The position numbers and the translations under genes are program-made. The notes below the pieces were generated by a model that did no database searches, was not told the DNA's origin, and worked only from the letters and a program-made list of their open reading frames with translations. From contig CALHBJ010000012.1 in assembly GCA_937930845.1 (NCBI GenBank), forward strand, positions 62,001-126,000: 64,000 bases of DNA, given 5' to 3'. Position 1 is the first letter of the stretch, and every line of letters begins with the position of its first letter. This document shows, in pieces, positions 43,151 through 62,966 of the stretch. This DNA comes from an uncultured Rhizobiaceae group bacterium. Lineage in GTDB: Bacteria; Pseudomonadota; Alphaproteobacteria; Rhizobiales; Rhizobiaceae.

Positions 43151-46100
43151 ATGGAAGAAATATTATTGACCGACCAATCGAACGATGCACAACCGCAAAC
43201 TGTGACAACGCGACCCCAAGCCCACCCAGGAATCGCAAACCTTTTGAAGGACGCGCGTCAACGCTTGGTTGAAACTGGCACGCGAAACCGACTGGTGCAC
43301 GTAAATCGATCAGCCGCTCGCGCCAACGTCTTGAATATCATCAATGAACAATCCGATTTTGTATTCGATTTCCTGCGTGGACAGGGCAAGAAGATGCGCT
43401 TCAAGGCAACTGGCAAAGACCGTCAATCGCTCGACGACAACGCAGTAGCTCTTTTCGTAGAAACCGAGCCAGATGAACCTTTCGATGAAGGTCGATATTC
43501 AGACAATCAACTTGAAACACCACTCGGGCCTGATGCGCAGGCAAAGCGTCTATTGCGTTTGGCTCGCGATGCCAAAACAGCAGAAGAAGAACAAGGCATC
43601 AATATTCTGTATCTGGCCTTGGGGTTTCTCTCATGGTTCGAGGACAAGAGCTCGGCCGTTGAGCGCGAGGCACCGCTAATTCTGCTACCGGTGGAATTGG
43701 TTCGAAATGCAAAAACCTCGAACTACGACTTAGTATGTCGAGACGATGAAATAATCACTAACCTTCCGCTTCAGGAACGGCTTCGTGGCGACTTTGGAAT
43801 TGAGCTGCCAGAGGTGGATGCTGACCACGAAGAATGGTCACCGAGTGCCTACTTCGATTTGGTTAAGGACAGAATTGAAGGCAAACCAGAATGGTCGCTG
43901 GACCGTGATGGTATGCAGCTTGGATTTTTCTCGTTCGCAAAACTCTTGATGTTGCGTGATCTGGATCCAAGCAACTGGACACCCGGAGCTCTCGAAGACA
44001 ACGAACTAATCAAAGGTCTGTTGGCCACGGGCTTCGCGCAAGAGCCGTCAATGTTTGATGGACAGGAGAAGCTCGATCAACTGCTGGAGCCTGCCAACAT
44101 CATTCAAGTGGTTGATGCAGACGCATCGCAAACGAAAGTGATTGAAGAAGTTCGTAGTGGGCGAAATCTGGTGGTACAGGGTCCGCCAGGAACTGGTAAG
44201 AGCCAAACAATCACAAACATCATTGCATCCGCCGTCCATGACGGAAAATCGGTGCTGTTCGTTGCTGAAAAGATGGCAGCTCTATCGGTGGTGCATCGTA
44301 GATTGAAAAAGGCCGGCCTCGAAAACATCTGCTTAGAACTGCATTCGCGAGCATCCAACAAGAAGCAAGTTATCGACGAGATTGGCCGCACCCTCGTGCA
44401 GGGAACCTCGGTGCCTGCCATGCCGGCTGATCCGGATGAGTTGAAACTAACGCGCGATCAGCTGAACGATATTCTTGAAGCGCTGCACTCACCGATCGGC
44501 AATTCAGGTAACACTGTTTACCAAACCCTAGCTCGGCTCGTTTCATTGGCTGGGCAAGAAGCTCCAATTCCTGAGTTGGATGGAACGCCTCTGACAGCGA
44601 CATCCGATAGTGATGTCGATGAGATAATGGGCCAGCTTGACCGCTATATGGAAGGGCTGGGCGATGCCCCAGGCAGGGCTGCACATCCGTTATTCGGCGT
44701 TGCAAACTTGAAATTGCAACCAATGGATCTCCAGAGATTGCAATCAAGTCTAGCCAGATTATCGACTGAGTTTGAGACGTTTAAATCCAAAGCTGAGAAA
44801 ATTGTTCAATTAACCGGAATTTCGGACCCTTCGTTTGTGGACGTAGAGCGCACATGCAGATTTCTTGATGAAGTTTTAGCAGCGCCTGATTACACGCAGC
44901 AATTGTTGCCGATATTTGGGGATGCAGAACAAACTGAAGTCGTGAATTCCGGCCTTCAACTTGGCATTGAGTGGCAGACCAAATTATTACGAATCAACAA
45001 GATTTATCAGGATGTGGCTTGGGATGTTCCCATCGAACACCTACGTGGGGCTTTGGCGTCAGGAACGGCTGGTTTCTTTTCCAGGTTCAAAAGTAGCTAT
45101 CGCCAGGCTAGCGCAGAGCTTGCAACACTCGTTGTAGAACCCTTACCCAAAAACGCGAACGAGCGACTAAAACTGTTTGATCAGCTCCTAGCTTTGAGAA
45201 AAGCGCGCAAAGAGTTTGTCGATCAAACGGCATCGTTGTCTCACTTGCTTGGGAAAAATTGGCAGGGAGAGAAAACCAATTTTTCAGTGATCCTCAAAGT
45301 AGGGCGCTGGCTTACATCAATCAGAAGTTTGGCCAGCATTAGCGACGAGGCACTTGCCACATTGCTCGGCAAGCGAGACTTGTTAGTTCAATTGCCTGAG
45401 CAATTTCGAACGGGTAGCGCAGATAATCTGCAAGCTATTCAAGCCGTGTTTGATAGTTTGAATTTTGATGTAAGCGGAGTTTTCTACTGCGATAACATCA
45501 ATGAGATCAAGCTGATGGCTCTCGTCGATCGCATCCAAAAACTTCAAACGCACCTGATTAATCGATACGATTCATGGCAAAGATTGAGCGAGGCGGCGGC
45601 TAGCCTTTCTAGCGCGTCGCTTTCCAAGATATTAGAAGGCCTTGATGAGGGAAAAATCTCAAGTGCCGAAGCCAAAGTTGAAATTAGATATGCACGTGCG
45701 GAAGCGCTCTGGAGATTGGCGCGTGAACAATATCCGCAATTGGATGGTATCGTCCGTTCCAAACGGCACGAAGTCGTTAGTCGATTCACCAAATTGGAAA
45801 AGCAGCGCATCGAAGATGTCCAAACTCTCATTCGCGCAAAGCATCTCGATCAACTTCCTCGTGGTTCTATCGGCGAAATGGGCGTCATCCAAAGTGAAAT
45901 GGGTAAACGCCGCCGATTGAAACCTGTCCGCAAGTTAATCAGTCAAGCGGGAAGCATGATTCAGCGCATAAAACCTGTGCTTTTGATGAGCCCAATTTCC
46001 ATTGCTCAATTTCTTCCACCGGAGACGCTGGAGTTTGACCTTCTGGTGATTGACGAAGCCAGTCAGGTTCGCCCAGAGGACGCACTGGGCGCCATCGCCA

Positions 46101-47947
46101 GAGCCAAACAAATCGTTGTGGTCGGCGATACAAAACAATTGCCACCAACCTCTTTCTTTGACCGGATGACGGGTAATGATGAGGAAAAAGACGAAGATGA
46201 TGAAGGAGCCGAGTTGCTGGAAGGGGCCGCTAGGGCAACTGAGCTGGAATCAATCTTGACACTTTGCGAAGCACGATCAATTTCGTCCCGCATGCTGGAA
46301 TGGCATTATCGGTCCCGTGACCCGTCACTGATGCGTGTATCCAACAAAGAATTTTACAACGATAACCTCGTTCTGCCGCCGTCTCCGCTTGAGCACGACG
46401 ATACTTATGGAATGAAATTCACAAAAGTAGATGGAGCATACACCAGCGCATCGAAGGGCACTGGCACACCTGGAACGAACAAGATCGAAGCCCAGGCAAT
46501 CGTCGACGAAGTCAGTGCCCACGCCAGGCTCACGCCGGATTTCTCGCTGGGTATCGTTACTTTCTCTGTTCGCCAGCGCAATATGGTGACCGAGCTACTC
46601 GAACTCGCCAGACGTAGCGATGCTACATTGGACGCCTTTCTGAGAGAGGGGCGTTCAGAAGATTTGTTCGTCAAAAACATTGAGAACGTTCAGGGCGACG
46701 AAAGAGACGTCATTCTGGTCAGCGTTGGTTACGGTCCTCATGAACCAAGAGGGCGCTTGTCCACGATGAGTTTTGGCCCGGTAAACGGTGAGGGTGGTGA
46801 ACGCCGATTGAACGTCCTGTTTTCCAGAGCGCGTATTCGCTGTGAAATATTTGCTTCGTTTGATCCCGGTGACATAGACCTTTCGCGCACCCAGAAGGAA
46901 GGCCCCAGAATTTTCAAACGTTATCTGGAATACGCCAAATCGGGGGTTCTTGATCAACCCGTATCAACTGGACTGGCCGCCGATTCTGAATTCGAAATTG
47001 ACGTGGCCAATGAAATTCGAAAATTGGGTTTTGTGGTTGACTATCAGGTTGGAAGTGCAGGTTTTCTGATTGACTTGGGTGTTAAACATCCCGTCAGAAC
47101 AGGACAGTATATGTTGGCTGTAGAATGTGATGGCGCTACCTATCACAGTGCTCTGTGGGCAAGAGAGCGGGATCGATTACGTCAGGACGTCCTGGAAAAC
47201 CTCGGCTGGCAATTTCACAGGATTTGGAGCACGGACTGGTTTCAAAAACGGGCGGATGAGATTGAACGGCTGAAAAACGTGCTGCGCAATGCGAGCGAGC
47301 TGACCAACTCGGGCGTAGAAATTACTGGTGCCAATTCAGGTGATGAGTTCTTAGGTGCAGCGGACAAATTGAATGAGCATGATTCAAACCCTGAAGTGAT
47401 CGAAGTTAAAAAACTACCACTGCTCGAATGTCCAGCTTATGAAAGAGCTAACTTCTCCGTATCCTCTGCTCTTGAACCTCATGAGACACCGAAGTCGCAG
47501 TTGACGGAAATAGTGAGGCGTATTGTGGAGGTCGAAGGCCCGGTTCACCAGGAAGAAATCGCCAGAAGGCTTGCGGGCTTATTTGGAAAGGAACGAGCTG
47601 GAAATCGTATATTCGAATTGACGAAAGATGCTCTGAGCCGAGCAAAAAGCGTAACTAAGACGCCAATGATCGTGAAACAGGGACCGTTTTGGGCAACTGA
47701 ACTTCAGTTGCAGGAGGTGCCACTTCGGAACCGTAAGGACGCGACTGGTACAATTCAAAAAGCTGAGATGATCCCTCCAATTGAAATTGCCACCGCAATT
47801 CACAAAATATTGGAAGAAAGCGGTGAAGCAAGTGAAGATGAGATCGTTCGAGCAACAGCAAAACTTTTTGGTTTTGACAGAGTTGGCCCGGCCTTGCGTG
47901 AGGTCATCAAGCGGGAAGTGGATCAGTTTCCCAATGCACTAAGCTAA
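43151..47947 (+). CDS. DUF4011-helicase-Vsr-DUF3320 protein (Hhe-like antiphage candidate)
   Basis: A 1598-residue multidomain protein. N-terminal DUF4011 (~25-200: RQRLVETGTRNRLVHVNRSA), SF1 helicase with Walker A GPPGTGKS at 344-351, a ~550-residue helical insert, Walker B VIDEAS (D968), GDTKQLPP, WHYRSRDPSLM and NVLFSRAR. Then a Vsr/MTES_1575-like nuclease (~1275-1375) with VECDG (E1325, D1327) and RIWSTDWF, and a DUF3320-type C-terminus in two copies (~1455-1510, ~1540-1598). I recall this single-gene architecture among predicted defence genes as Hhe. It occupies half of the tRNA-Gly island, alone, with no methylase. Confidence 0.85.
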   Translation: MEEILLTDQSNDAQPQTVTTRPQAHPGIANLLKDARQRLVETGTRNRLVHVNRSAARANVLNIINEQSDFVFDFLRGQGKKMRFKATGKDRQSLDDNAVALFVETEPDEPFDEGRYSDNQLETPLGPDAQAKRLLRLARDAKTAEEEQGINILYLALGFLSWFEDKSSAVEREAPLILLPVELVRNAKTSNYDLVCRDDEIITNLPLQERLRGDFGIELPEVDADHEEWSPSAYFDLVKDRIEGKPEWSLDRDGMQLGFFSFAKLLMLRDLDPSNWTPGALEDNELIKGLLATGFAQEPSMFDGQEKLDQLLEPANIIQVVDADASQTKVIEEVRSGRNLVVQGPPGTGKSQTITNIIASAVHDGKSVLFVAEKMAALSVVHRRLKKAGLENICLELHSRASNKKQVIDEIGRTLVQGTSVPAMPADPDELKLTRDQLNDILEALHSPIGNSGNTVYQTLARLVSLAGQEAPIPELDGTPLTATSDSDVDEIMGQLDRYMEGLGDAPGRAAHPLFGVANLKLQPMDLQRLQSSLARLSTEFETFKSKAEKIVQLTGISDPSFVDVERTCRFLDEVLAAPDYTQQLLPIFGDAEQTEVVNSGLQLGIEWQTKLLRINKIYQDVAWDVPIEHLRGALASGTAGFFSRFKSSYRQASAELATLVVEPLPKNANERLKLFDQLLALRKARKEFVDQTASLSHLLGKNWQGEKTNFSVILKVGRWLTSIRSLASISDEALATLLGKRDLLVQLPEQFRTGSADNLQAIQAVFDSLNFDVSGVFYCDNINEIKLMALVDRIQKLQTHLINRYDSWQRLSEAAASLSSASLSKILEGLDEGKISSAEAKVEIRYARAEALWRLAREQYPQLDGIVRSKRHEVVSRFTKLEKQRIEDVQTLIRAKHLDQLPRGSIGEMGVIQSEMGKRRRLKPVRKLISQAGSMIQRIKPVLLMSPISIAQFLPPETLEFDLLVIDEASQVRPEDALGAIARAKQIVVVGDTKQLPPTSFFDRMTGNDEEKDEDDEGAELLEGAARATELESILTLCEARSISSRMLEWHYRSRDPSLMRVSNKEFYNDNLVLPPSPLEHDDTYGMKFTKVDGAYTSASKGTGTPGTNKIEAQAIVDEVSAHARLTPDFSLGIVTFSVRQRNMVTELLELARRSDATLDAFLREGRSEDLFVKNIENVQGDERDVILVSVGYGPHEPRGRLSTMSFGPVNGEGGERRLNVLFSRARIRCEIFASFDPGDIDLSRTQKEGPRIFKRYLEYAKSGVLDQPVSTGLAADSEFEIDVANEIRKLGFVVDYQVGSAGFLIDLGVKHPVRTGQYMLAVECDGATYHSALWARERDRLRQDVLENLGWQFHRIWSTDWFQKRADEIERLKNVLRNASELTNSGVEITGANSGDEFLGAADKLNEHDSNPEVIEVKKLPLLECPAYERANFSVSSALEPHETPKSQLTEIVRRIVEVEGPVHQEEIARRLAGLFGKERAGNRIFELTKDALSRAKSVTKTPMIVKQGPFWATELQLQEVPLRNRKDATGTIQKAEMIPPIEIATAIHKILEESGEASEDEIVRATAKLFGFDRVGPALREVIKREVDQFPNALS

Positions 47948-48298: not shown

Positions 48299-49558
48299 TC
48301 ATGGAGTGTCCGGATTTTTAATTGGTGCAGCTGCAAGCAGTTTTCCTTCGCATGATCCAAATCCGATTTGATAGCCATCGCCCTTCGCTGCACCATAGAG
48401 TGTCAACGTGTCGCCATCTTCAATGAAGCTGCGCTGTTCGCCGGTGTCGAGCGTGAACGGCTCTTTGCCCCCCCAAGACAGTTCCAGCAGCGAGCCGCGA
48501 CTTCCTTTATCCGGCCCGGAAATTGTGCCGGATCCCAGAAGGTCGCCAACATTCATCGGACAACCGCTCGATGAATGATGAGCAAGCTGCTGGGCAGATG
48601 AATAATACATCTCGTTGTAATTGGTCTGGGTGATAATCGTTTCGCTGCCGCCTTGCGGCGTCAATCCAACCTTCAGGTCAATATCATAGAGCATGGGAGA
48701 TGGCTCCTGCAGATAGGGCAAGAGTTCCTTTTCACGCTCTGGTGTTGGGCAACGGAACGGTTCCAGCGCCGCGGCTGTAACAATCCAGGGGCTGATCGTA
48801 TTAGCTGTGGCCTTACCTTGAAACGGCCCAAGCGGCTGATATTCCCAAGCTTGAATGTCACGGGCCGACCAATCGTTCAAAAGCACATAACCGAAAATAT
48901 TATCGAAAGCCTCCTGCACGCTAATCGCGTCATCGGAAGCCTGGCCAACAATGGCACCCATCTCCAATTCGATGTCAAAACGCTGCGACGGGCCAAAATG
49001 CGGCACATCGTCGTTTGGGCCTTTAAGCTGACCGTTGGGACGCCGGACCGGTGTGCCGGAGACGATGACCGACGACGCACGTCCATTGTAGCCAATTGGA
49101 ATGTGCAGCCAGTTTGGTGGCAATGCATTTTCCGCTCCCCGAAACATCGTGCCCACATTGATGGCGTGGTGCTTGCCAGCATAGAAATCGGTATACTCAC
49201 AGACCTTGAAGGGCAGATGCAATTTTGCGTCTTTCAGGGGAACAAGATGGGGTTCAACGTCCAACCGTGACTTTGAATCCGCCGACAGCAGGGCCGTCAA
49301 TTCGCTGCGCAAACGTTTCCAGGAACCCTTTCCAAGCGCCATAAAGGCCGTCCAGTCACCCGTACCAAGCGTACCTTCGAACGAAAGTGTTCCAGCTATT
49401 TCCAGCGCTGCAACATTGAGGACCATATCGCCGATTGCGACCCCGCATTGCGGTTCACCGTCTGCAGTTGAAAACGAGCCGTAAGGCAGATTGTTAAGTG
49501 GAAACTGCGTCTCGGCGTTGTTGGCGCTTTCGACCCAGCTGGATTTCAGATTGCTCAT
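48299..49558 (-). CDS. fahA: Fumarylacetoacetase
   Basis: A 419-residue enzyme that cleaves fumarylacetoacetate to fumarate and acetoacetate, the last step of homogentisate degradation. FKVCEYTDFYAGKHHAINVG (catalytic His/metal Asp), LDIELEMGAIVG-like RFDIELEMGA, LLNDWSARDIQAWEYQPLGPFQGK and GDLLGSGTISG are full-length FAH signatures. It is the last gene of the sulfatase-hmgA-maiA-fahA run, nine bases after maiA. Confidence 0.96.
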   Translation of the reverse strand: MSNLKSSWVESANNAETQFPLNNLPYGSFSTADGEPQCGVAIGDMVLNVAALEIAGTLSFEGTLGTGDWTAFMALGKGSWKRLRSELTALLSADSKSRLDVEPHLVPLKDAKLHLPFKVCEYTDFYAGKHHAINVGTMFRGAENALPPNWLHIPIGYNGRASSVIVSGTPVRRPNGQLKGPNDDVPHFGPSQRFDIELEMGAIVGQASDDAISVQEAFDNIFGYVLLNDWSARDIQAWEYQPLGPFQGKATANTISPWIVTAAALEPFRCPTPEREKELLPYLQEPSPMLYDIDLKVGLTPQGGSETIITQTNYNEMYYSSAQQLAHHSSSGCPMNVGDLLGSGTISGPDKGSRGSLLELSWGGKEPFTLDTGEQRSFIEDGDTLTLYGAAKGDGYQIGFGSCEGKLLAAAPIKNPDTP

Positions 49559-49567
49559 GAGAGTTCC

Positions 49568-50194
49568 TTAAATTGCGTCAGGTTGTGCTTCCGGTCTGGC
49601 ATTCTTGAATGCAGAGAGTTCAAGGCACCGGGCTTCGATATCGGTCAATCGTGCGAACGGTTGAAGATTTACCCCCCATCGATGGGCATTATAAAGCTGG
49701 GGGATCAGGCAGATGTCGGCGAGAGACGGTTGGTCACCAAAACTGAAATCTGCATCTGGCAGCAAGGCTTGATAGGCTTCAAAACCGCGCTCCATCCAAT
49801 CCGCCATCCAGGCCACAACGTCGTCTTGCGTATGGCCCATTTTTTTCAGCTTCTTTGCCACCTTCAGATTGTTGATCGGATGAATATCGGAGGCGATGAT
49901 CATTGCCGCTGCCTAAATCTTCGCCGCCGCGATGGGGTCTTCAGGCAAGAGTTTTGGTGAAGGGCAAACACGATCAAGATACTCGAGGATCGCCATGGAT
50001 TGGGTCAGCATCGTACCGTCATCGAGAACGAGTACCGGAACACCCCTGATCGGATTGAGTGCTGCATAGGACACATCATTCTGTTCACCGGCAACCAGAT
50101 CGACAGGGATGGTTTCGTAGTCCAGCCCCTTCAGGTTCAGCGCTATCCGCACCCTATAGCTGGTTGTCGACCGCCAGTAGGAATAGAGCTTCAT
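49568..50194 (-). pseudogene. maiA: Maleylacetoacetate isomerase interrupted by in-frame TAG
   Basis: A zeta-class glutathione transferase-type gene of 209 codons that isomerises maleylacetoacetate to fumarylacetoacetate. The N-terminal half (LYSYWRSTTSYRVRIALNLKG, the SSCSxRVRIAL-type motif) and the C-terminal half (IASDIHPINNLKVAKKL, QPSLADICLIPQLYNAHRW) are both intact and in the same frame, but codon 94 is TAG (49913-49915). ATG at 49903 could restart the second half. Start overlaps the hmgA stop (ATGA). Sequencing error, nonsense mutation or suppression are all possible. Confidence 0.85.
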
Positions 50195-51543
50195 TTGCGC
50201 CCCGGCGTGCCGTCGAAGTGCTTCTCCATATCGGACCACACATCGATATAGTTTTCCTGAATAGGCGCTTCGTTTGCTGCGAAATCAGTCAGGTGTTGTG
50301 GGAAGCGGGTCTCGAACATAAACGACATGGTGTTGTCGAGTTTTTCGGCTTTCAGATCGGCATTGGAAGCACCTTCATAGGCGTTACGATCCGGCCCATG
50401 GGGCAGCATCATATTGTGCAGAGACAAGCCGCCGGGCACGAACCCTTCTGGCTTGGCATCATATATGCCGTAAATATTGCCCATCAGCTCCGACATGATG
50501 TTCTTGTGATACCAAGGCGGACGGAAGGTATCTTCGGCGACCATCCAGCGCTCACGAAACAGTACAAAATCGATATTGGCCGTGCCCGGACTGCCAGAGG
50601 GCGCGGAGAGCACCGTGAAAATCGACGGATCGGGATGGTCGAACAGGACAGCACCGACGGGGCAATAGGCGCGCAGATCGTATTTATAAGGCGCGTAATT
50701 GCCGTGCCATGCCACCACATCAAGCGGCGACTGGCCGGTTTCGGTTTTGTGGAACTGACCGCACCATTTGATCGTGATGGTCGATGGCCGTTCCCTGTCC
50801 TCAAAAGCCGCAATGGGTGCCTTGAAGTCACGGGGATTGGCCAGACAATTGGCACCGATTGGGCCGCGGCCCGGCATTTCAAATTTCTGCCCGTAATTCT
50901 CGCAGACAAATCCGCGCGCCGGTCCATCCAGCAGTTCGACGCGATAAACCAAGCCGCGCGGGATGATGGCGATCTCCTTGGGCTCGACGTCAATAATGCC
51001 AAGCTCTGTGAGGAAGCGGATACGGCCCTGCTGAGGCACGACCAAAAGTTCGCTGTCGGCAGAGAAGAAATAATCATCGACCATCGATTCCGTCACCAGA
51101 TAGACATGGCTGGCCATGCCCACTTGAGTGTTCACATCACCGGCCGTGGTCATGGTGCGCATGCCTGTGAGCCAGGTCAGCGACTTATCGGAGGTCTCAA
51201 CAGGGTTCCAGCGATATTGACCCAAGCTTTTAACATCATCGATCACATTGGGTGCCGATTTCCAATAGGGCATATCGATGCGTGTGTAGCGGGTGGAGTG
51301 TTTGACGGATGGACGGATGCGGTAACACCATGTTCGCTCCGGCGGATGCGCAGTGAAGGCGGTGCCGGAAAGCTGTTCGGCATATAGTCCGTAATTGCAT
51401 TTTTGAGGGCTGTTCATGCCCTGCGGCAAGGCACCTTCAAGCGCTTCGGTCTCATGGTCGTTGCCGAACCCCGCCATATATCCGGGTGTGATTGCGCTGT
51501 TGCTTTTTTGTTGAACGATCGGGCGGTTCTCTTGCGTGTTCAT
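50191..51543 (-). CDS. hmgA: Homogentisate 1,2-dioxygenase
   Basis: A 450-residue Fe(II) ring-cleaving dioxygenase turning homogentisate into maleylacetoacetate. [26 protein letters not shown] is the family start; iron ligands lie in [15 protein letters not shown] (His and Glu) and MLPHGPD (His). ATG at 51543 has AGGAG six bases upstream. It overlaps maiA by four bases and follows the sulfatase gene by 52. Confidence 0.97.
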
Positions 51544-51595
51544 CAAAAACTCCTGTGGTCTGGTTGGCCGTCCTGCTGCGTCATCATCCCGCGCC

Positions 51596-53167
51596 TCACG
51601 CGCGATAGGCTGGCAAAGGTGCCCTGTCCTGCAAATCGATCATCCGTCGTAGCATAATTTCTGTCAGTTCATGCTGGGCATTCGCATGGGCCTTATCATC
51701 GTACAGATTATCCATTTCCAGGGGATCCTCTTGCAAGTCGTAGAGTTCTGCCCAGTCCTCTCCCTCACGTAATGACATGCGATATCGATCCGTCACCACC
51801 GTGCGCACGCGCTGGGGACGATCAAAGCCGGTCATGCGGCGCTGGCTGTCTTCCTCCACGATAATGGCGTCTGGCGGTGCTGCGCCAAACAAGTTGCGCC
51901 CCTGCAATCCGTTGAAGGGCTGAATTCCAGCGCGTTCGAGAATCGTCGCGGAAATGTCGATAGACGAGGCAAGCGAAACATCCACTTGCGCATCGGTATT
52001 TTGTTGCGGGTCGTTCCAGATAAAAGGCACGCGAATGATGCCCTGATAGTGAAGCAGCAGCTTCAACATCAGGCCGTGATCACCCATGTAATCGCCATGA
52101 TCGGAGGTGAAGATCACAATCGTATCTTCATCCAGTCCCAGCGTTTTCAGGCGATGGAGAACCCGTCCAATGGCATCGTCAATCATAGTGATCATGCCAT
52201 AGGTCAGCGCAATGATATCACGCGCTTCCCGCTCGGTGACAGCAAACGGGCTTTGGTTGTCGCGAGGGTCCGTTCCTTTTTCAAGCGCTTCCTGCATGGC
52301 GCGAATGGGCGGCAGGCCCCCTTTGCCAAAGGACTCTGGCAGCGAAACGTCAGCCGGGCCGTACATATCCCAATATTTGCCTGGCGGCGTGAATGGGTGA
52401 TGCGGGTCGGGAAAGGACATTTGTAGAAAGAACGGCGCGTCATCCTCAGCCCGTTCGCTCAACCAACTTTCTGTCCGGTCAGCGATCCAAGATGTTGAAT
52501 ACAGCTCTTCCGGCACGGCAGTGCGCCAGGCCTGTGGTGCCCTGATGCGGTTGTCTGGCAGAGCGTTTTCCGGCCCCACCAAACTTTCAAAGTCAGGGTG
52601 CTGTTGGCGCACCCAAAGCAGATAGTCGCCAGACGCCTGATCGGCATGGTCGGCCGCGATTTCCACATGTTCGAACCCGTAAAAATCGCCATCCATGCGT
52701 TCGGCCAGTGGTCGGTCCCATTTTGGGAGAACTTCCAGGTCATAGTCGGGCGTGTGCCGATTGCGTTTGTAGGCGTCCCGCAAATGCTTGGACGGCACAT
52801 GCTTGCCTTTTTCCGGCTCGAACGTGTTGGTGGCAGGAAGCCCGGTAAAACTTTGCAGATGCGACTTGCCGATCAAGCCGGTGCGATAGCCTGCATCGCG
52901 CAACAGTTCCACAAATGTAGTATGATCGCGAGACAGTGGAATACCGTTATGTCGTGCACCATGCACCGAGCACATACGGCCTGTCATGATGGATGCGCGG
53001 TTGGGCATGCAGATCGGGTTAGCAACATAAAACTTCTCAAACCGGGTCCCGGCCTCTGCGATGCCGTCGATATTGGGCGTTTGGACGATGGTGTTGCCGT
53101 AGCAACCCAAATGGTCAGCACGGTGTTGGTCGGTGATGATAAAAAGGAAGTTGGGTCGTTTACTCAT
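51596..53167 (-). CDS. Type I sulfatase, cytoplasmic
   Basis: A 523-residue formylglycine-dependent sulfatase. Starting residues [21 protein letters not shown] carry metal Asp and the catalytic Cys53 is in C-M-P-N-R, the CxPxR maturation site. [17 protein letters not shown] contributes metal Asp/Asn-type ligands. No signal peptide precedes the catalytic fold, so it acts in the cytosol after import. The TRAP permease stop overlaps its start (TGATG). Substrate not known; aryl or alkyl sulfate ester. Confidence 0.92.
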
Positions 53168-55200
53168 CAGACCATTTCTCCGGATTTTGATAACATAGTG
53201 TGACGACGAACATCGTAGAAGATCAGCCCCGCGCCAATGATGATCGCAGGAATGTGGATCAGCGGATCAATCACCAAACAGGCAAAGGCCGCCACAAAGC
53301 GCAGCACGACTTCCGGTACGGTGAGCTTGCGGCGGTCATAGGCGGAAAGCGCCGAGGAAAACAGCCAGATGCAAAAACAGGTGCGCGCAACAATCCATAC
53401 GAAGACCACAAGGTTGAACTCTTCAACGATCAGCAAAGTGGGATAGAAAGCAAAGATGAACGGGATGATGAATTTGGCCATGCCGAGGCGGAACGACATC
53501 AGCGCGGTCATCAGCGGGTTCGACTGCGCAATGGGTGCCGCCGCATAGGCGGCAATGGCAACCGGCGGCGTTAGGGAAGAGGCTACACCGTAGTAGAAAA
53601 CGAACATATGCGCGGTCAGCATGGAAATGCCCAAGGCCTGTATTGCAGGCCCCATCACCAAAATGATGATCAGATATGCAGGCAAAGTCGGCATGCCCAT
53701 GCCGAGTATCAGCGCGCCTATCATGGCAACAGCGAGCGCTGAAAACAGGCTCTCGCCCCTGATGCTGGCGATGACGTTGGCGAGCTTTAGACCCAATCCC
53801 GTTGAATCGAGCGACCCAACCAAAATGCCGATGGCCGCGATGGCGATGAGCAATGTTGCGCCGGACTTGCAGCCTTCAAGGAAACTGTTCCAGACCCGTT
53901 TCGGGTCGCGCCGCACATCCGGATTAATGACCGACAGGAGCAAGACAGTGACAACCGCAAAAAACCCGGCTTTCGATGTGGATTGCCCCAAAATGAGCGA
54001 GGCGATTACCGTCAAGATCGGCCCGATGAACAAGATGGAATTGATCCAGTCCACGCGGGTGATCTTGTCATCCAATGTCAGTTTCTGAACTTCGATTCCC
54101 TGACGGCGTGCTTCGACTGTCACGGCGGAAAAGAGGCTGAAATAGTAAAACAGGGCCGGAACAAGCGCCGCCACAATAACGTTGAGATAGCCCGCGCCCG
54201 TGAGGTCGGCCATAACCAGTGCCGCAGCGCCCATGATCGGCGGCATGATCTGCCCACCTGAGGAGGCGGTCGCTTCGATCCCGGCGGCAAAGGTTGGCGA
54301 AAAACCCCGCTTTTTGATCATCGGGATCGTGAATGTGCCGGTGCCCACGATATTGGCGACGGTGGAGCCGGACATGGTACCAAAAGCGGAAGAGGCAAGA
54401 ATTGCGGCGTGGGCGGGCCCGCCGCGCGTTCTGCGCGTCGCTAGAAACGCAAATTTGAGCAGCGTTGCACCGGCGCCCGTGCCTTCGAGCAGTGTGCCGA
54501 AAATGATAAAGATGAAGACCGTCGAAAGCACAATATTGGTGATTGAACCGAACACGCCCTTATTGGTGTTGTACCAAAGCGCCTCTGAAACTTCGATCAG
54601 CGAAAAGCCACTATGGGCCAGAATGCCCGGAGAGTTCTGACCGAACAACAGATAGAGAACGGCCAACGCGCCAACGACAAAAAGACCGTAGCCCCATAAT
54701 CGGCGGCACAATTCCAGAAATACGATGAGTCCGGCAAAAGCGGGCCAGGCGTCCGCTTGGGTCACATCATAGAGAGCTTCTTCCATCTGGGTCTGAACAA
54801 AGAAGAAGGACCATATTGCCCAAAAGCCAAGCACGATCAGGCCGATGTCGACCAACAGCTGGAAGAGACCACCCGGCGAGCGCGATTCAGACGCTTCCTC
54901 AGCAGGAGGCGTATTGGTGGTCAGCTTAGCCGGAGGGATGGATTGATCTGCATCGACCAGATCAGCGGAGACCAGATCAGCGGAGCCTCCCCCAACCTCC
55001 AGAAGCTGGCGCTTGCGCCTTGAAACCACCACGCCGACAACCAGCGCCAATGCAAAGCCCAGTGCCCGGTGAACTTTGGGGTCGAGCAGGCCAAGACCCG
55101 AACTGTAGATAGCGATTGCGCCCAATACCGTGCAAGACACGATGAAGAGGACGTTGAAGATACGGGTTGTCCCGTCCGGCGCTGCTGACTGATCGCTCAT
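53167..55200 (-). CDS. TRAP transporter fused permease subunit (DctQM, TAXI type)
   Basis: A 677-residue membrane protein combining the small DctQ-like and large DctM-like TRAP subunits. SSAFGTMSGSTVANIVGTGTFTIPMIKKRG and GMGMPTLPAYLIII are the DctM signature motifs. About 16 to 18 hydrophobic helices are seen, the normal number for TAXI-TRAP. Start 55200 (MSDQSAAPDG) avoids a four-residue upstream extension. It lies 72 bases after the binding-protein gene and overlaps the sulfatase gene. Confidence 0.94.
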   Translation of the reverse strand: MSDQSAAPDGTTRIFNVLFIVSCTVLGAIAIYSSGLGLLDPKVHRALGFALALVVGVVVSRRKRQLLEVGGGSADLVSADLVDADQSIPPAKLTTNTPPAEEASESRSPGGLFQLLVDIGLIVLGFWAIWSFFFVQTQMEEALYDVTQADAWPAFAGLIVFLELCRRLWGYGLFVVGALAVLYLLFGQNSPGILAHSGFSLIEVSEALWYNTNKGVFGSITNIVLSTVFIFIIFGTLLEGTGAGATLLKFAFLATRRTRGGPAHAAILASSAFGTMSGSTVANIVGTGTFTIPMIKKRGFSPTFAAGIEATASSGGQIMPPIMGAAALVMADLTGAGYLNVIVAALVPALFYYFSLFSAVTVEARRQGIEVQKLTLDDKITRVDWINSILFIGPILTVIASLILGQSTSKAGFFAVVTVLLLSVINPDVRRDPKRVWNSFLEGCKSGATLLIAIAAIGILVGSLDSTGLGLKLANVIASIRGESLFSALAVAMIGALILGMGMPTLPAYLIIILVMGPAIQALGISMLTAHMFVFYYGVASSLTPPVAIAAYAAAPIAQSNPLMTALMSFRLGMAKFIIPFIFAFYPTLLIVEEFNLVVFVWIVARTCFCIWLFSSALSAYDRRKLTVPEVVLRFVAAFACLVIDPLIHIPAIIIGAGLIFYDVRRHTMLSKSGEMV

Positions 55201-55272
55201 AACACACTCCAACCGGCCGCGACGTTAGGGGCGCCGGGCAGTTCATTGCCCGGCACAACGAAGTGCTTCGAG

Positions 55273-56280
55273 TTATGGACGCAGGTTGTTGGGGATCGTG
55301 AACCCGGCTTCTTCATAGTAGCGCACGGCACCGGGATGCAGCGGCACATTGATGGCCGTGAAAGCGGTTTCCTTGGTCACTTCTTTCAGGAAGAAGGCTG
55401 TTGCCTGAACATCCGAAAGGTTTTCCCAAAACGCCTTTGTCGCCTTGTAAACCACATCGTCGGACACGCCTGAATGGGTGCCAACCATCTGGAAGAACCC
55501 AAGCGCTGTAATTTCGCCCTCGGTCAACTGCCCCTTGTATGTGCCGCCATCAAACACAGCCATGCCGCGCCCGGGACGTCCGAACAGCTTTTTCATGGCA
55601 TCGCTGTCACGCGCACTGTCGGGAATGGACAAGACTCGGAAGCTGCCGGAAAGGCCGAATTGTTCGATATTGGCAGAGCCGACTTCTGCAGGGCGGACCA
55701 TCATATCAACCTTACCATCGGCAAGGGCGGCATAACCCTCGCCCCAACTCAGGCGCACTGCGTTATAGTCTTTGCCCGCTTCATAGCCGGCGATAATCTT
55801 GATCAGGGCTTCAGACGTGGCAGAAGCCGAGCCGGCAGGCGGGCCGGTAAAAACCGTTTTGCCTTTAATGTCTTCCCATTTTTCAATACCGGAGCTTGCC
55901 AGCGTCACGGGATGATAAGCACCGGCCTTGAAGCCCAGAATGGCCCGCAGGTTCTTGGCCAGTTCCGGTGCATTCTCGATCTTGGAATACATGCGCTTTT
56001 TGCCGGCCATCAGATTGGCTAGCGATGGCACAGACGAGAAAAACGCGATGTCGCCTTTTGCCCCTTTCAACATGGATTTGGTCAGCGTCTGACCGGCATT
56101 GACCTGAATTTCCACATCGGCCTTACCAGCCTGATTGGCAAAGGCCACAAACATGGTGTGAACGGGATCGCCGACACCGGCAGTTTCTCCCTTGTAAATC
56201 TGGGCGGATGCGGCGGTTGGCTGCATCGCTGCCAGTGCCACCGCGAACACAGGGGCGATGAATGATTTGATGTTGAGCAT
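55273..56280 (-). CDS. TAXI family TRAP transporter solute-binding protein
   Basis: A 335-residue periplasmic binding protein. A signal peptide (FIAPVFAVALAAMQPTAASA-Q) leads into ADVEIQVNAGQTLTKSMLK and TGPPAGSASATSEALIKII, typical of TAXI proteins. Start 56280 is supported by GGAGAAAG; an upstream open frame is not conserved. First gene of the operon with permease, sulfatase and homogentisate enzymes; it should define the imported compound. Confidence 0.92.
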   Translation of the reverse strand: MLNIKSFIAPVFAVALAAMQPTAASAQIYKGETAGVGDPVHTMFVAFANQAGKADVEIQVNAGQTLTKSMLKGAKGDIAFFSSVPSLANLMAGKKRMYSKIENAPELAKNLRAILGFKAGAYHPVTLASSGIEKWEDIKGKTVFTGPPAGSASATSEALIKIIAGYEAGKDYNAVRLSWGEGYAALADGKVDMMVRPAEVGSANIEQFGLSGSFRVLSIPDSARDSDAMKKLFGRPGRGMAVFDGGTYKGQLTEGEITALGFFQMVGTHSGVSDDVVYKATKAFWENLSDVQATAFFLKEVTKETAFTAINVPLHPGAVRYYEEAGFTIPNNLRP

Positions 56281-56369
56281 GTCTTTCTCCCAAATAGATC
56301 GCGCAATCCTAGCATTGCACATTTCATTACGTATAATAATTTCTTGGTCTCTATATATAGCGTTTTGAT

Positions 56370-57266
56370 ATGAAACTTGATCCAAGACATCTCCTTCAGC
56401 TTTCCGTAGTTGTCGAATCCGGTTCCTTTCAATTGGCGGCAGATCGATTGAGGCTGACCCAACCTGCACTCAGTCGAAACATGAAAACGCTCGAAGATCG
56501 ACTGGGTGTCCCCCTTTTTCAAAGGGACGGACGACGATCTGTGCCGAATGATGACGCCCTGCGTCTTGCCAAGAACGGGCTAGCCATAAGGATCGCCCAG
56601 GAACAGGCTTCCACCCACGCCGATAATGTTGCAAGCGGACAATCCGGTTTGTTGCGCCTTGGCGCGCCACCTATCGTGGCTGGTCGCTATCTTACCAGTG
56701 TTTTGGCCAAGTTCATGAACGACTTTCCCGATTGTGTCGTGGAATTGCGAACGGGCCTCGTTCATGAATTGAGGTCGATGGTTGAGCGCGGTCAGATTGA
56801 TCTGGTAATAGCCCCGCAAAATTTGGCAGAACATTCCGAGGAACTCGAATTTCTCCCGCTGGTCAACGACCGTATCGGTATCCTGTCCAAGGTCGATCAT
56901 CATCTTTCCAAGCAGAAGAAAATAACAAGAAATGATCTAAAAAACGAACGCTGGTTAGCGCACTCTCGCGGCAGCCTTCTGTGGCATCAAACCGAGACGG
57001 CAATGGTCGCGCTGGGCCTGCACCAGATTCGTATTGCCTGTGTTACAGACTCAATAAGATCGGCACTTGAAATTGTTGCGGAAACAGAACTCATCACAAC
57101 GATGCCACGGCTCACCACCGAGCCGTATTTGGGAGATCAGCTGTCATTTTTGCCGTTTGAACACCCCTTGTTCAAACGGAATTTGGGCGCAGTCTATCGG
57201 GCCAACATGCCTGTCAGTCCTGCAATGTCCCGGTTTCTCAAATTGCTGCAAAGAGGTTCAAATTAG
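56370..57266 (+). CDS. LysR-family transcriptional regulator
   Basis: A 298-residue LysR regulator with an N-terminal winged helix (HLLQLSVVVESGSFQLAADRLRLTQPALSRNMKTLEDRLGVPLF-type, residues 5-65) and an effector domain (LRLGAPPIVAGRYLTSVL onward). It diverges from the TAXI gene over 89 bases, the usual placing for a regulator of the adjacent operon. A TACGTA core (56328-56333) in an AT-rich stretch of that gap might be its site, but this is weak. Confidence 0.92.
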   Translation: MKLDPRHLLQLSVVVESGSFQLAADRLRLTQPALSRNMKTLEDRLGVPLFQRDGRRSVPNDDALRLAKNGLAIRIAQEQASTHADNVASGQSGLLRLGAPPIVAGRYLTSVLAKFMNDFPDCVVELRTGLVHELRSMVERGQIDLVIAPQNLAEHSEELEFLPLVNDRIGILSKVDHHLSKQKKITRNDLKNERWLAHSRGSLLWHQTETAMVALGLHQIRIACVTDSIRSALEIVAETELITTMPRLTTEPYLGDQLSFLPFEHPLFKRNLGAVYRANMPVSPAMSRFLKLLQRGSN

Positions 57267-57299: not shown

Positions 57300-58001
57300 C
57301 TAGAGAACAGTGCGCATCTGGTAGCCAGAATGGAACACCAGTTTCACGCTTGTTATGGCAATGTCGTTGTTCCAGGTAGTGCGATCAATTGCGAACAGAG
57401 CTTCACCGCTTTTCGCGCCAAGCCGTTCGGCAATCGATGCATCCCCGCTTGTCGCAGAAAATGCAATATCGCCGTTTGTGAAGGGCGCATTGGCCACAAG
57501 CCATTCATTGGCACTGATGCTCTTGAAATCTGCATTCAAAATGTCTGGCACAGCGTCCAGATTGATCCACCTGTCGGAGGCAACGTAAGGTTTGCCGTCT
57601 GACAAATGCACAGATTGGTGATGCAGCATAGGCTCATCTCCGTTCAGGCGCATGGTCGCATGAATATTCAGGGGCGGTTCCTCGATCTTTGAAGAGAAGA
57701 CGGCATAGGCATAGCTGTGATTGCCCGCCTCGATTTCTTCACGAATAACCGGAATGTTCAATGTTGCCCGCCGTACGGGATTTGTTGCGACACGTGTGCC
57801 GGCCTTGCGCTTTCGGTCCAGCAGGCCATTTTCGGCAATGGCTCGCAGGGCGCGATTGACGGTGGCCCGCGCGCAGCCGAACTCTTCAGCCAAATCAGAC
57901 TCATTTGGAATGAGTTGCCCCGGTTCCCACTGCCGCGAGTGAATGCGGGATAGCACTTCGGCCTCCACAGCTTTCCAGTTGCTGAGGCTCACGGAACTCA
58001 A
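57300..58001 (-). CDS. hutC: Histidine utilisation repressor, GntR/HutC family
   Basis: A 233-residue GntR regulator of the HutC group: winged helix with WEPGQLIPNESDLAEEFGCARATVNRALRAIAENGLL-like recognition and a UTRA effector domain (residues ~85-230) that senses urocanate. It likely begins at TTG 58001, overlapping the hutF stop (TTGA) with GGGAG upstream; GTG three codons later is a second choice. Together with hutF it diverges from hutIHGU. Confidence 0.9.
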   Translation of the reverse strand: MSSVSLSNWKAVEAEVLSRIHSRQWEPGQLIPNESDLAEEFGCARATVNRALRAIAENGLLDRKRKAGTRVATNPVRRATLNIPVIREEIEAGNHSYAYAVFSSKIEEPPLNIHATMRLNGDEPMLHHQSVHLSDGKPYVASDRWINLDAVPDILNADFKSISANEWLVANAPFTNGDIAFSATSGDASIAERLGAKSGEALFAIDRTTWNNDIAITSVKLVFHSGYQMRTVL

Positions 58002-59365
58002 ATCACATCTCCCAAGTTGCGCATGGTGTTGCTGTAGTTCGCGACAATCGCATCACGCCGGACGTGGTGCCCATTTTGAACCATATGGCGCCCTGCAGAC
58101 CAGACATCTTTCACCATGCGGTCGTCGCCCGCGAAAATATAACTGTCGAGCACCACATCACCACTTTTGCCTTCAAGGTCCACATGGTCCGTGTCCAGGG
58201 ACATGAGGTCTGCCCAGTTGCCAACGGCAATCGCACCCGTTTGACGACCAGCCGCTTGTGCGCCTCCAGAACAAATCTCATCGAACAACCGACGCCCAGT
58301 CGACTTTTCATGTGTTGCCAGCGCAGCACGGGAGCGATCACGCAGGCGTTGGGAATAGTCCAATGTGCGCAATTCTTCTGACAGGCTGATGCGGATGTTG
58401 GAATCCGATCCGATGGCGATTTTGCCGCCCGCATCCAACCATCCCAACCCATCGAAAATGCCATCACCCAAGCTGGATTCCGTAATTGGGCAAAGGCCAG
58501 CAACAGCGCCAGTTTGCGCCAGTGCTTTGGTTTCATGGGGTTGCATTTGTGTGCAGTGAATCAGGCACCAGCGCCCGTCGATTGGAAGATTGTCCAACAC
58601 CCATTCAACTGGCCTTTTGCCCCATGCGGCTTGGACCTCTTCAACCTCGGCGATCTGTTCTGCCAAATGCATGTGAATTGGGCCATTTGCGCCAAGGGTC
58701 ATGAGTGCTGACAGACCGTCGGCTCCAACAGCGCGAAGGCTGTGTGGGGCAATGCCTGAATTCGCGTCAGATGACAGGCCTTTGACCGTGCGGCTTGCCT
58801 CTTCCAGCAATCGCCCAAAACGATCAATGTCATTGCCGAACCGAATTTGCCCTTCCCCAAGTGGGCGTTGGTCGCAGCCGCCATATTGGTAATGTACAGG
58901 CAGCAATGTCAGCCCAATGCCGGACTGTTCGGCTGCAGCAGCCACCCGTTGCGACATTTCAGCGAGGTCATCATATGGCGCGCCACCCGGTTGATGATGG
59001 AGATAGTGAAATTCTCCGTTGGTGGCATAGCCCGCCTCCAGCATTTCCATTTGTACGAAGGCCGTTATGGCTTCGACATGGTCTGGTGTCAGACGGTCAA
59101 GAAAGCGAAACATCAATTGCCGCCAGGTCCAGAATGTATCGTTCGGGTTGGGCCCGCGCCGCTCCGTCAGCCCCGCCATGGCGCGTTGAAAGGCATGGCT
59201 GTGAACATTGACCGGGGCAGGCAGCAACACGCCCACGTGGTGATCGGCGGTTTTGGACGCTTCAACACATACACGGTCAATACGACCCATTGCGTCCATT
59301 TCCACAGTAACGTCATGTGCCCAGCCATCAGGCAACAATGCCTGTTTTGCAAAAAGTGTGGTCAT
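57998..59365 (-). CDS. hutF: Formimidoylglutamate deiminase
   Basis: A 455-residue amidohydrolase that deiminates N-formimidoylglutamate to N-formylglutamate. Metal-binding HSH in VNVHSHAFQRAM, further His in IHMHLAEQIAEVE and CLIHCTQM, and Asp in AIGSDSNIRISL. Start 59365 (MTTLFAKQALLPDGW). Presence of hutF and hutG sets the five-enzyme route with formylglutamate. Confidence 0.94.
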   Translation of the reverse strand: MTTLFAKQALLPDGWAHDVTVEMDAMGRIDRVCVEASKTADHHVGVLLPAPVNVHSHAFQRAMAGLTERRGPNPNDTFWTWRQLMFRFLDRLTPDHVEAITAFVQMEMLEAGYATNGEFHYLHHQPGGAPYDDLAEMSQRVAAAAEQSGIGLTLLPVHYQYGGCDQRPLGEGQIRFGNDIDRFGRLLEEASRTVKGLSSDANSGIAPHSLRAVGADGLSALMTLGANGPIHMHLAEQIAEVEEVQAAWGKRPVEWVLDNLPIDGRWCLIHCTQMQPHETKALAQTGAVAGLCPITESSLGDGIFDGLGWLDAGGKIAIGSDSNIRISLSEELRTLDYSQRLRDRSRAALATHEKSTGRRLFDEICSGGAQAAGRQTGAIAVGNWADLMSLDTDHVDLEGKSGDVVLDSYIFAGDDRMVKDVWSAGRHMVQNGHHVRRDAIVANYSNTMRNLGDVI

Positions 59366-59390
59366 GAATGGCCCAGCTTGACACAATTAT

Positions 59391-59404
59391 TATGTGCATA
59401 CATA
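59391..59404. promoter_or_regulatory. Candidate HutC operator between hutF and hutI
   Basis: TATGTGCATACATA has inverted 5-bp ends (TATGT/ACATA) in the 72-base gap between the divergent hut operons, and a GT...AC core as in HutC/GntR boxes. It could serve both promoters; assignment is by position and pattern only. Confidence 0.5.
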
Positions 59405-59437
59405 TAAAGATTATAAGCATCCTAATCAAGCGCGCCC

Positions 59438-60637
59438 ATGCTGTTCACCAACGCAAAAATTGCAACAATCACAGGCAATCAGCCATATGGACTGATCGAT
59501 GGTGCGGCGATTGTCACCCAGGGTGAGACAATCGTGTGGATCGGCAATGCTGCCAAAGTGCCGGACGAGTTCGGCAATCATGATATCCACGATTGCGGCG
59601 GACGACTCATCACTCCGGGCCTGATCGATTGTCACACACATATCGTCCATGGTGGTCACCGTGCGAGCGAATTTGAGATGCGCCTTAAGGGTGCAAGCTA
59701 CGAAGAAGTGGCTCGCGCCGGAGGCGGCATTGTCTCCACAGTGATGGCAACCCGCGAGGCTTCGCTTGAAGATCTGGTCATGTCGGCATTGCCAAGACTG
59801 GACGCATTGATTGCCGAGGGCGTCTGCGCCATCGAAATCAAATCAGGTTATGGGTTGGATCAAAAAACCGAACTGAACATGCTACGCGCCGCCCGCAGGC
59901 TGGAAAAGGAACGTCCCATTCGGGTCGTGACCAGTTTCCTCGGTGCCCATGCGGTGCCGAAAGAATTTAATGGTCGCGCCGATGCATATATCGATGAAAT
60001 ATGTATTCCCACATTGGAAGCCGCCCATGCCGAAGGGCTTGTGGACGCGGTTGACGGGTTTTGCGAGAACATCGCTTTCACGCCGGATCAGATCGAGCTG
60101 GTCTTCGTGAAAGCCAAAGAACTTGGCCTTCCGGTCAAGCTGCATGCAGAGCAATTGTCGAATATGGGGGGCACATTATTGGCCGCCCGCTACGGTGCAC
60201 TTTCAGCCGACCACATCGAATATGCCAATGAGGACGATGTGAAGGCACTGGCGGCGTCTGGCACCATTGGCGTTGTGCTGCCGGGTGCCTTCTACACTTT
60301 GCGTGAAACGCAGCTACCCCCCATCCAGCACTTGCGCAAGCATAATGTCCCCATCGCTTTAGCCAGCGACTGCAATCCCGGCTCCTCGCCTTTAACCTCC
60401 CTGCTCTTGACGATGAACATGGCCTGCACCCTGTTCCGCATGACGCCGGAAGAGGCATTGGCAGGCGTAACTGCCAATGCTGCCCAGGCCTTGGGTCTGA
60501 CCGAAACCGGCACGATTGAGGCAGGCAAGCGGGCGGATTTTTGTATTTGGAACATCGATCACCCGGCAGAACTTGCTTACCGCATCGGCTTCAACCCCCT
60601 GTACAAACGCATTTTTGGAGGTGAAGCATGGGCGTAG
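59438..60637 (+). CDS. hutI: Imidazolonepropionase
   Basis: A 399-residue amidohydrolase that opens imidazolonepropionate to formiminoglutamate. [59 protein letters not shown] and [19 protein letters not shown] carry metal and substrate residues. It overlaps hutH by ten bases. Confidence 0.97.
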
Positions 60638-62169
60638 AACTCACTCCCGGCCAAACGACACTGGCTCAATTGGAACAAATCTGGCGTTCGCAAGAGGCGG
60701 TGAAACTCAACGCCGATTCACGCCCACAAATTGAACGAGCGGCTGAAATGGTTGCGCACGCAGCCGCTGGCAACGAAGCTGTCTACGGAGTAAATACAGG
60801 CTTCGGCAAGCTCGCCAGCGTCAAGATTGCGGCCGAAGATACCGCCACTTTGCAACGCAATCTCATATTGTCCCACTGCTGTGGTGTCGGCGAAGCGCTC
60901 GACATTGCGACCACCCGTTTGATGATGGTGCTCAAATTGCTCTCGCTTGGGCGCGGCGCATCCGGTGTGCGCTGGGACGTGATCGAACAAATACAGAGCA
61001 TGCTGGAAAAAGACGTCACCCCCGTCATTCCCGATCAGGGTTCTGTTGGCGCATCGGGGGATCTCGCGCCATTGGCCCACATGGCAGCCGCGATGATGGG
61101 TGAGGGTGAAGCCTCATTTGCAGGCGAACGTATGAATGCCAGGGACGCGCTATCCAAAGCAGACCTTTCCCCGCTTGAACTGGGGGCCAAAGAAGGTCTG
61201 GGCCTGATTAACGGTACGCAATTTTCAACGGCTTGCGCTCTGACAGGTCTGTTCGGTGCCTGGCGCAATGCGGCGGCAACGATCGTCTCTGCATCTCTAT
61301 CCACCGATGCCATCATGGGCTCTACCGCACCGCTGGTGGATGAGATTCATACCCTGCGCGGCCATGCAGGGCAGATCGCCGTTGCCCGCGCCATGCGTGA
61401 TGTGATGGCCGGTTCCGAAATCCGCGAAAGCCATCGTGAGGGAGATACGCGGGTACAAGACCCCTATTGCATTCGTTGCCAGCCGCAGGTGACGGGCGCT
61501 GCAATGGACTTGCTGCATTTTGCGGGCCGCACCCTGGAAATAGAAGCCAATGCGGTTACCGATAATCCGTTGGTTTTGACACAGGAAGGCTTGATCGTTT
61601 CCGGCGGCAATTTCCATGCCGAGCCGGTGGCCTTTGCGGCGGATCAAATCGCGCTGGCAATTTCTGAAATCGGTGCCATTTCCCAGCGCCGCGTGGCGTT
61701 GATGGTGGACCCGACTTTGTCTTTCGACCTGCCGCCTTTTTTGACGCCGGAACCGGGCCTCAACTCCGGCCTGATGATTGCGGAAGTGACCACGGCTGCT
61801 CTGATGAGCGAGAACAAGCACCTCGCCAATCCATGTTCAACGGATTCCACCCCGACATCTGCCAACCAGGAAGACCATGTTTCGATGGCGGCACATGGTG
61901 CGCGGCGTCTGGCGCGGATGAACCGCAATCTTAACACGATTATCGGTGTTGAACTCATGTGTGCCGCGCAAGGTGTTGAGTTTCGTGCACCACTGAAAAC
62001 CAGCGACAAGCTGGCTATGGCGATGAAGGTTCTGCGCAAGAAAGTCGCCACGCTGAAAGACGACCGCTACATGGCTGACGACATCGCCAAGGCGTCCGCA
62101 ATTGTTGCTGATGGCGACCTACTTTCCACCCTGAACATTTCCGGATTTATCACAGGCAAAGCCACATGA
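60628..62169 (+). CDS. hutH: Histidine ammonia-lyase
   Basis: A 513-residue enzyme that removes ammonia from L-histidine to give urocanate. The cofactor MIO forms from A142-S143-G144 in [15 protein letters not shown], same numbering as in the Pseudomonas enzyme as I recall. [14 protein letters not shown] and [16 protein letters not shown] are further signatures. GGAGG precedes ATG. Confidence 0.97.
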
Positions 62170-62966
62170 CCCCCGTTGAGGTCCAAAGCGGCGACAGCCC
62201 GATTGTCCTCGGCCTGCCTCACACGGGCACATATGTGCCTGAGGATATTTTCGAGCGAATGAACGAAAACGGGCGCACGCTTCGAGACACGGATTGGCAT
62301 ATCCACACGCTCTACGACGGACTGCTGGACGGTGCGACCACCGTGCGGGCAACCTTCCATCGCTATGTGATCGACGCAAACCGCGACCCGGAAGGGGTGA
62401 GCCTTTATCCGGGTCAGAACACCACAGGGCTGGTGCCTCTGACAGATTTCGATGGTCAGTCCATCTGGTCGCAACCGCCAACGGATGCCGAAATCGAAAC
62501 GCGCTGCGCAAATTTTCACGCGCCTTATCACGCCGCCTTAGAGCAGGAATTGCAGCGCGTGCGCGAAAAGCATGGAATTGCCATTCTCTATGATTGTCAT
62601 TCTATCCGTTCGCAAATTCCGTTTCTGTTTGAAGGCGTCCTGCCCGACTTCAATATCGGTACGAATGAGGGACAAACTTGCGCCCGACGGCTGCAGGATG
62701 CGGTGTGGCAATTGTGCCAACAGGCGCAGGGTTACACATGTGTTCTCAATGGGCGTTTCAAAGGGGGGTGGACGACCCGTCACTATGGGCGTCCGGCGGA
62801 TAATATCCACGCGATCCAGATGGAACTGGCGCAATCAACGCACCTGAAAACTGAGGCCCTACCGTTCGACTGCGATGTGCAAAAGGCCGCAGACTTGCGG
62901 GCGCAACTTCAGAAAATTCTCGATTCTCTGGCCGAATTGGCCCCCCAGCTTGGAGCAAAATCATGA
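62166..62966 (+). CDS. hutG: N-formylglutamate deformylase
   Basis: A 266-residue enzyme that hydrolyses N-formylglutamate to glutamate and formate. [52 protein letters not shown] and [18 protein letters not shown] are FGase family motifs. ATGA overlaps occur at both ends (hutH and hutU). Confidence 0.95.

Follow-up and report, generated by a model that had tools for sequence, protein, structure and literature searches.

The closest described systems each share part of the locus studied here. The tyrosine/phenylalanine homogentisate pathway employs the same three lower enzymes (HmgA, MaiA, and FahA) but uses 4-hydroxyphenylpyruvate dioxygenase (HPPD), for which the genome that contains our locus (3.76 Mb, rated 100% complete) gave no match at an E value of 0.001. 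Choline-sulfatase (BetC), which we take to be an importer-fed member of the same superfamily as our sulfatase, differs in that the latter falls below the cut-off of the choline-sulfatase NCBIfam model (198 versus 433 bits). A further relative is the mhaAB-hmgABC cluster for 3-hydroxyphenylacetate and homogentisate in Pseudomonas putida U and Burkholderia xenovorans LB400, as presented in sections of PMC3053370. It shares with our operon a peripheral step that is clustered with hmgA, maiA, and fahA, apparently funneling an aromatic acid into homogentisate. According to the same sections, the peripheral gene there encodes a flavin hydroxylase, whereas our operon carries a sulfatase and a TAXI-family importer. 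The preliminary description of this DNA knew of no published system of such a kind, and a literature search of open-licence PubMed Central text, by title and start of abstract, likewise found no description of a sulfatase-homogentisate system.

The operon and its regulatory region occupy the following positions of the window, which is the whole 64,000-nucleotide stretch of DNA that was analyzed.

55273..56280, minus strand: TAXI-family TRAP solute-binding protein gene (TIGR02122, 119 bits; cut-off, 84)
53167..55200, minus strand: fused TRAP permease gene (TIGR02123, 481 bits; cut-off, 321)
51596..53167, minus strand: sulfatase gene (PF00884 over cut-off; C53-x-P-x-R57)
50191..51543, minus strand: hmgA, homogentisate 1,2-dioxygenase (TIGR01015, 626 bits; cut-off, 511)
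49568..50194, minus strand: maiA, maleylacetoacetate isomerase, with an in-frame TAG (TIGR01262 matched by two halves)
48299..49558, minus strand: fahA, fumarylacetoacetase (TIGR01266, 497 bits; cut-off, 375)
56370..57266, plus strand: LysR-type regulator gene, divergent from the operon (PF00126 and PF03466)
56325..56376, minus strand: conserved operator-like site between the LysR and binding-protein genes (alignment of 21 intergenic regions)

The six genes of the operon had been reported to run in one direction in the order binding protein, permease, sulfatase, hmgA, maiA, and fahA, separated by 72 bases, an overlap, 52 bases, an overlap, and 9 bases. This was borne out on the minus strand (48299-56280); the divergent LysR gene had been overlooked. 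Both the binding protein and the fused permease exceed their NCBIfam cut-offs and are assigned to a TAXI TRAP transporter. By eye, the binding protein carries a signal peptide; its structure model was unusable (pLDDT, 45.9). For the homogentisate pathway, hmgA and fahA lie over their cut-offs, and HmgA could be aligned with the solved HmgA structures 3zds and 1ey2, while maiA, formerly taken as intact, has its reading frame broken by a TAG at codon 94 (49913-49915). The two halves match positions 1-91 and 99-210 of TIGR01262 separately, each under the cut-off. Among 16 matches to this model in the window genome, only the operon maiA, with the TAG counted inside, scored over the cut-off. The gene is intact in three related loci (L016, L058, and L017, the last from the cultured Loktanella sp. 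5RATIMAR09). Either the MaiA step is probably broken in the present assembly or the stop codon results from an error in the sequence.

A 1,598-aa DUF4011/helicase/REase_MTES_1575/DUF3320 protein, encoded convergently with the operon at 43151-47947, strongly matches the PADLOC phage-defense candidate PDC-S37, and histidine utilization genes adjoin at 57300-62966 (hutC and hutF by model, the rest by eye).

The 21 aligned intergenic regions include that of the window, so that the weight-matrix score of its operator-like site (53.7; next best in the window, 1.1) is that of a training row, as is the score of 53.3 for locus L130. We count the LysR gene and this site as part of the operon system. Operators beside distant hmgA genes were considered and dropped, since the 24 other scanned loci all scored 7.8 or less. 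Between 47950 and 56600, promoter-like sites (3 versus a shuffle mean of 5.9) and terminator-like sites (8 versus 9.1) were not above shuffle level. On the minus strand, two weak promoter-like matches that agree in 9 of 12 bases are located at 51736-51707 and 51667-51639, just ahead of hmgA, which may therefore have a promoter of its own.

The sulfatase had been described as having the CxPxR site and no signal peptide, and both features hold (PF00884; C53-x-P-x-R57; signal peptide judged by eye). In 26 aligned sulfatase sequences, the motif residues C, N, and R are invariant, as are D13, K101, H103, D356, H357, and K369; these residue numbers were raised by one to account for the omitted Met. 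The motif P falls outside the columns conserved in 90% of the same sequences. The invariant residues are taken to have catalytic roles. The window genome encodes two members of the formylglycine-generating enzyme family; with PF00884 and CxPxR, this maturation-enzyme family marks the protein as a formylglycine sulfatase. It passes Pfam PF00884 but reaches no NCBIfam subfamily, scoring 254 versus 481 bits for arylsulfatase PRK13759 and 184 versus 900 bits for PehA. The predicted model (pLDDT, 85.6) and the sequence both point to SpAS1 and SpAS2 of Silicibacter pomeroyi (4upi and 4upl) as the nearest solved structures, although the identity in the fold alignment is only 25%.

It had been proposed to search genomes for hmgA next to a TAXI TRAP importer and a sulfatase. 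A scan with one genome per species gave 362 sulfatase loci, of which the best 80 were kept; 26 of these reached at least 70% identity. Together with L130 from the window's family and seven loci from the G003 family (G003 is a Loktanella), the 26 make up 34 related loci, all with a sulfatase at least 70% identical; two of them (L030 and L037) come from one MAG, and seven have a flank of less than 1.5 kb on one side. Genes for LysR, the binding protein, and the permease all lie within 6 kb of the sulfatase gene in 27 of the 34. The full set is missing in L026, L030, L031, and L236 and also in L027, L038, and L041, which stop at a contig edge. The MAG mentioned above contains the cassette region twice, and in L030 the binding-protein gene is split, with repeated 471-aa open reading frames between the pieces.

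The neighborhood recurs with homogentisate genes as well. A relative of hmgA, fahA, or maiA is found within 6.5 kb of the sulfatase gene in 7 of the 34 loci (L016, L017, L023, L024, L035, L041, and L130), and hmgA itself in five; in L130 it is convergent and 5.2 kb away. No hmg gene was found within this distance in the other 27, including all seven loci added from the G003 family, one of which ends 244 bases past the sulfatase gene. For less similar sulfatases, hmg genes are near 2 of 67 loci (L044 and L058), the flank lengths of the 67 being unchecked. If the chance per locus is assumed to be 0.33%, hmgA linkage in 5 of 34 loci has a P of about 1e-7, and at an assumed 1% the P is about 2e-5; relatedness is not corrected for in either value. 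By this rough estimate, the homogentisate linkage is well above chance. The conserved unit is the LysR-TAXI importer-sulfatase cassette, of which the homogentisate genes are a recurrent minority partner.

At the level of whole genomes, hmgA is present in all 10 G003-family genomes with a close sulfatase. Such co-occurrence was dropped as proof of a link because 263 of the 394 genomes of that family have hmgA over the cut-off. No hmgA match was found in 4 of the 25 genomes with a close sulfatase (G001, G014, G018, and G020); G001, G014, and G018 are MAGs, and HPPD is present in G014 and G018. A plasmid search returned three records with a related sulfatase (E value, 1e-100) and 111 with hmgA (E value, 1e-150). 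The gene tables of the three, which are incomplete, show no hmgA closer than 10 kb to the sulfatase gene, and one record carries both genes about 46 kb apart among the matches listed (40 of the 111 hmgA records).

Several individual loci broaden this picture. In L058, a TctA-type importer gene replaces the TRAP genes, and a 51% identical sulfatase is joined to hmgA-maiA-fahA. The cassette of Leucothrix arctica (G020) is followed by genes for a VOC protein, FahA, and MaiA. Since the VOC protein trails the sulfatase there, in a genome with no hmgA match, it may have a role in opening the ring. A 182-aa VOC protein is encoded near maiA or fahA in L035 (11581-12129), L130 (11687-12235), and L136 (14723-15241). 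IMCC1909 (G027) has a region of about 30 kb with hmgA, hydroxylase, ring-cleavage-like, and sulfatase genes (partly named by eye), in which hmgA (L114) is about 15.5 kb from the gene for a 77% identical sulfatase on the same contig. Loci L137 and L031 (contig 2 of G027) mark an island that holds hmgA, several sulfatase genes (the 77% relative among them), TRAP sets, and genes for flavin hydroxylases and dioxygenase-like proteins. The Leucothrix arctica and IMCC1909 loci support an aromatic substrate, its exact form aside. On a Paracoccus marcusii plasmid (NZ_CP157012.1; L255, 4693-11554), the gene for a 43.5% identical sulfatase is annotated in one row with those for a SulP anion transporter and for a TAXI binding protein and fused permease. 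The row is consistent with import followed by hydrolysis and export of the sulfate, and the pairing of TAXI importer and sulfatase thus extends beyond the link to homogentisate. The window genome itself has a second triad of TAXI binding protein, permease, and sulfatase (L169; contig C1, about 29-34 kb), whose sulfatase is 45% identical to the first; no homogentisate genes were found in the 18 kb read around it.

The phylogenetic placement of the linked genes was evaluated in two trees, some branches of which have low support where they place linked loci. In the HmgA tree (62 rows, about half picked on account of a related sulfatase in the same genome), the operonic HmgA proteins of the window, L016, L058, and L041 form a clade with that of G027 (L114; support, 96/99), and L017, L024, L130, and L044 fall outside. 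The clade nests in a mostly Rhodobacteraceae/Roseobacteraceae group by record titles. The window genome belongs to another family, and its hmgA was therefore probably moved by transfer. A close sulfatase in only 2 of 151 sampled genomes of the window's family (G000 and G116) also speaks for transfer. The sulfatase tree (50 rows) shows the hmg-linked loci scattered, with L058 far outside. Linked loci thus occur in several lineages of both proteins, which supports the link between the sulfatase and the homogentisate pathway on which the preliminary description was built.

The statement that no HPPD gene is in the operon extends to the whole window genome, for which tyrosine degradation, judged by HPPD in the genome, is not predicted. 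In a control search, HPPD was matched in 8 of 14 genomes and over the cut-off in one. It is also unmatched in G002 (L016), G010 (L024), and G024 (L044). HPPD occurs in the genomes of L017 and L058, each with a second hmgA elsewhere. Of the genomes with operonic hmgA, G003 and G026 carry HPPD, a flavin hydroxylase of the type found in G116 (the genome of L130), and a further hmgA elsewhere, and in G023 HPPD adjoins the operon. As raw counts, hmgA occurs without HPPD in 10 of 40 hmgA genomes sampled from the class, by our reading, versus 9 of 21 with a close sulfatase; the class sample comprises genomes with hmgA over the cut-off, includes our own genome, and counts HPPD split over two contigs as present, and several genomes in the comparison are MAGs. 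Missing HPPD is weakened as proof by this class background.

On balance, it is fairly likely that the LysR-linked operon imports a small aromatic sulfate and desulfates it in the cytosol, yielding homogentisate or a precursor one step away. The TAXI TRAP importer would carry the anionic ester inside unaltered. In the cytosol, the sulfatase would strip the sulfate, having been matured by a formylglycine-generating enzyme encoded elsewhere. The released phenol would be homogentisate or would become homogentisate in one step via an unlinked enzyme. HmgA would then cleave the ring, MaiA would isomerize the product, and FahA would split it to fumarate and acetoacetate.

The substrate class is most likely a sulfated (di)hydroxyphenylacetic acid of the seaweed or seagrass type. 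In sections of PMC12432060, the sulfates of dihydroxyphenylacetic acid and hydroxyphenylacetic acid are annotated by mass spectrometry in seaweed extracts, the ring isomer being unstated there for either, and parts of PMC6389981 describe sulfated phenolics in eelgrass leaves, for example, zosteric acid. We infer a seaweed and seagrass setting for the relatives; a literature search on habitat in open-licence PubMed Central text found nothing. The record title of one relative bears the isolate name Alg231.

Homogentisate sulfate is the boldest candidate for the substrate, and hydroxyphenylacetate sulfate is its main rival. With homogentisate O-sulfate (2,5-dihydroxyphenylacetate sulfate), hydrolysis would itself be the entry to ring cleavage, with neither tyrosine nor a hydroxylase involved, in hosts that perhaps live on seaweeds and seagrasses. 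We put this forward tentatively, as somewhat less than an even chance. Absence of both HPPD and the G116-type hydroxylase from G002 and G010, whose hmgA is operonic, fits a source of homogentisate that is particular to the operon (no match to the hydroxylase at an E value of 1e-40). The earlier suggestion that hydrolysis itself gives homogentisate stands as possible; against it speak the hydroxylases of G116 and L044, the 27 of 34 loci without hmg genes nearby, and the 4 of 25 genomes without an hmgA match. In G116, the cassette is convergent with a row of hmgA, FAA hydrolase, flavin hydroxylase, VOC protein, and maiA genes. Similar flavin hydroxylases are encoded near hmgA in several other fetched genomes, L140 adding an adjoining DUF2783 protein. 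L044 (1974-15445), from an Octadecabacter MAG, combines sulfatases, an aminotransferase, a TPP enzyme, an aldehyde dehydrogenase (by eye), and a flavin hydroxylase with hmgA and an FAA hydrolase, and could serve to convert a sulfated amino acid into homogentisate. Such loci, and the annotation of hydroxyphenylacetic acid sulfate in seaweeds, would be explained if the sulfatase gave a tyrosine-like phenol or a monohydroxyphenylacetate, to be turned into homogentisate by a hydroxylase encoded elsewhere. MhaAB, a flavoprotein with a small partner, carries out this conversion on 3-hydroxyphenylacetate, as given in a portion of PMC3053370. The hydroxylases near hmgA are, we infer, MhaA, and the genome-wide search had the G116 hydroxylase, a presumed MhaA-like protein, as its query. 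However, in addition to its absence from G002 and G010, the best match in the window genome is only 38% identical and lies among box-benzoate-like genes (by eye), and we judge this explanation rather unlikely, at perhaps one chance in a few.

The sulfatase might instead scavenge sulfur or carbon from an unrelated, perhaps nonaromatic, sulfate, the hmg genes having come under its promoter through a chance transfer. Most cassettes indeed lack hmg neighbors, the window HmgA was probably transferred, as its nesting in a clade mostly of other families indicates, and plasmids carry hmgA on the 111 records noted above. Chance linkage would nevertheless be rarer than what was seen, by the rough estimate, and the linkage is repeated across sulfatase and HmgA lineages, once with another importer family. 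This explanation is improbable in our view.

Degraders of sulfated algal and seagrass phenols are, to our knowledge, little known, and if import and desulfation of an aromatic sulfate are the role of this operon, its genes would provide a marker for the breakdown of such compounds. The conserved TAXI importer would gain a ligand class, and the sulfatase would represent a further entry to the homogentisate pathway, beside hydroxylases and HPPD.
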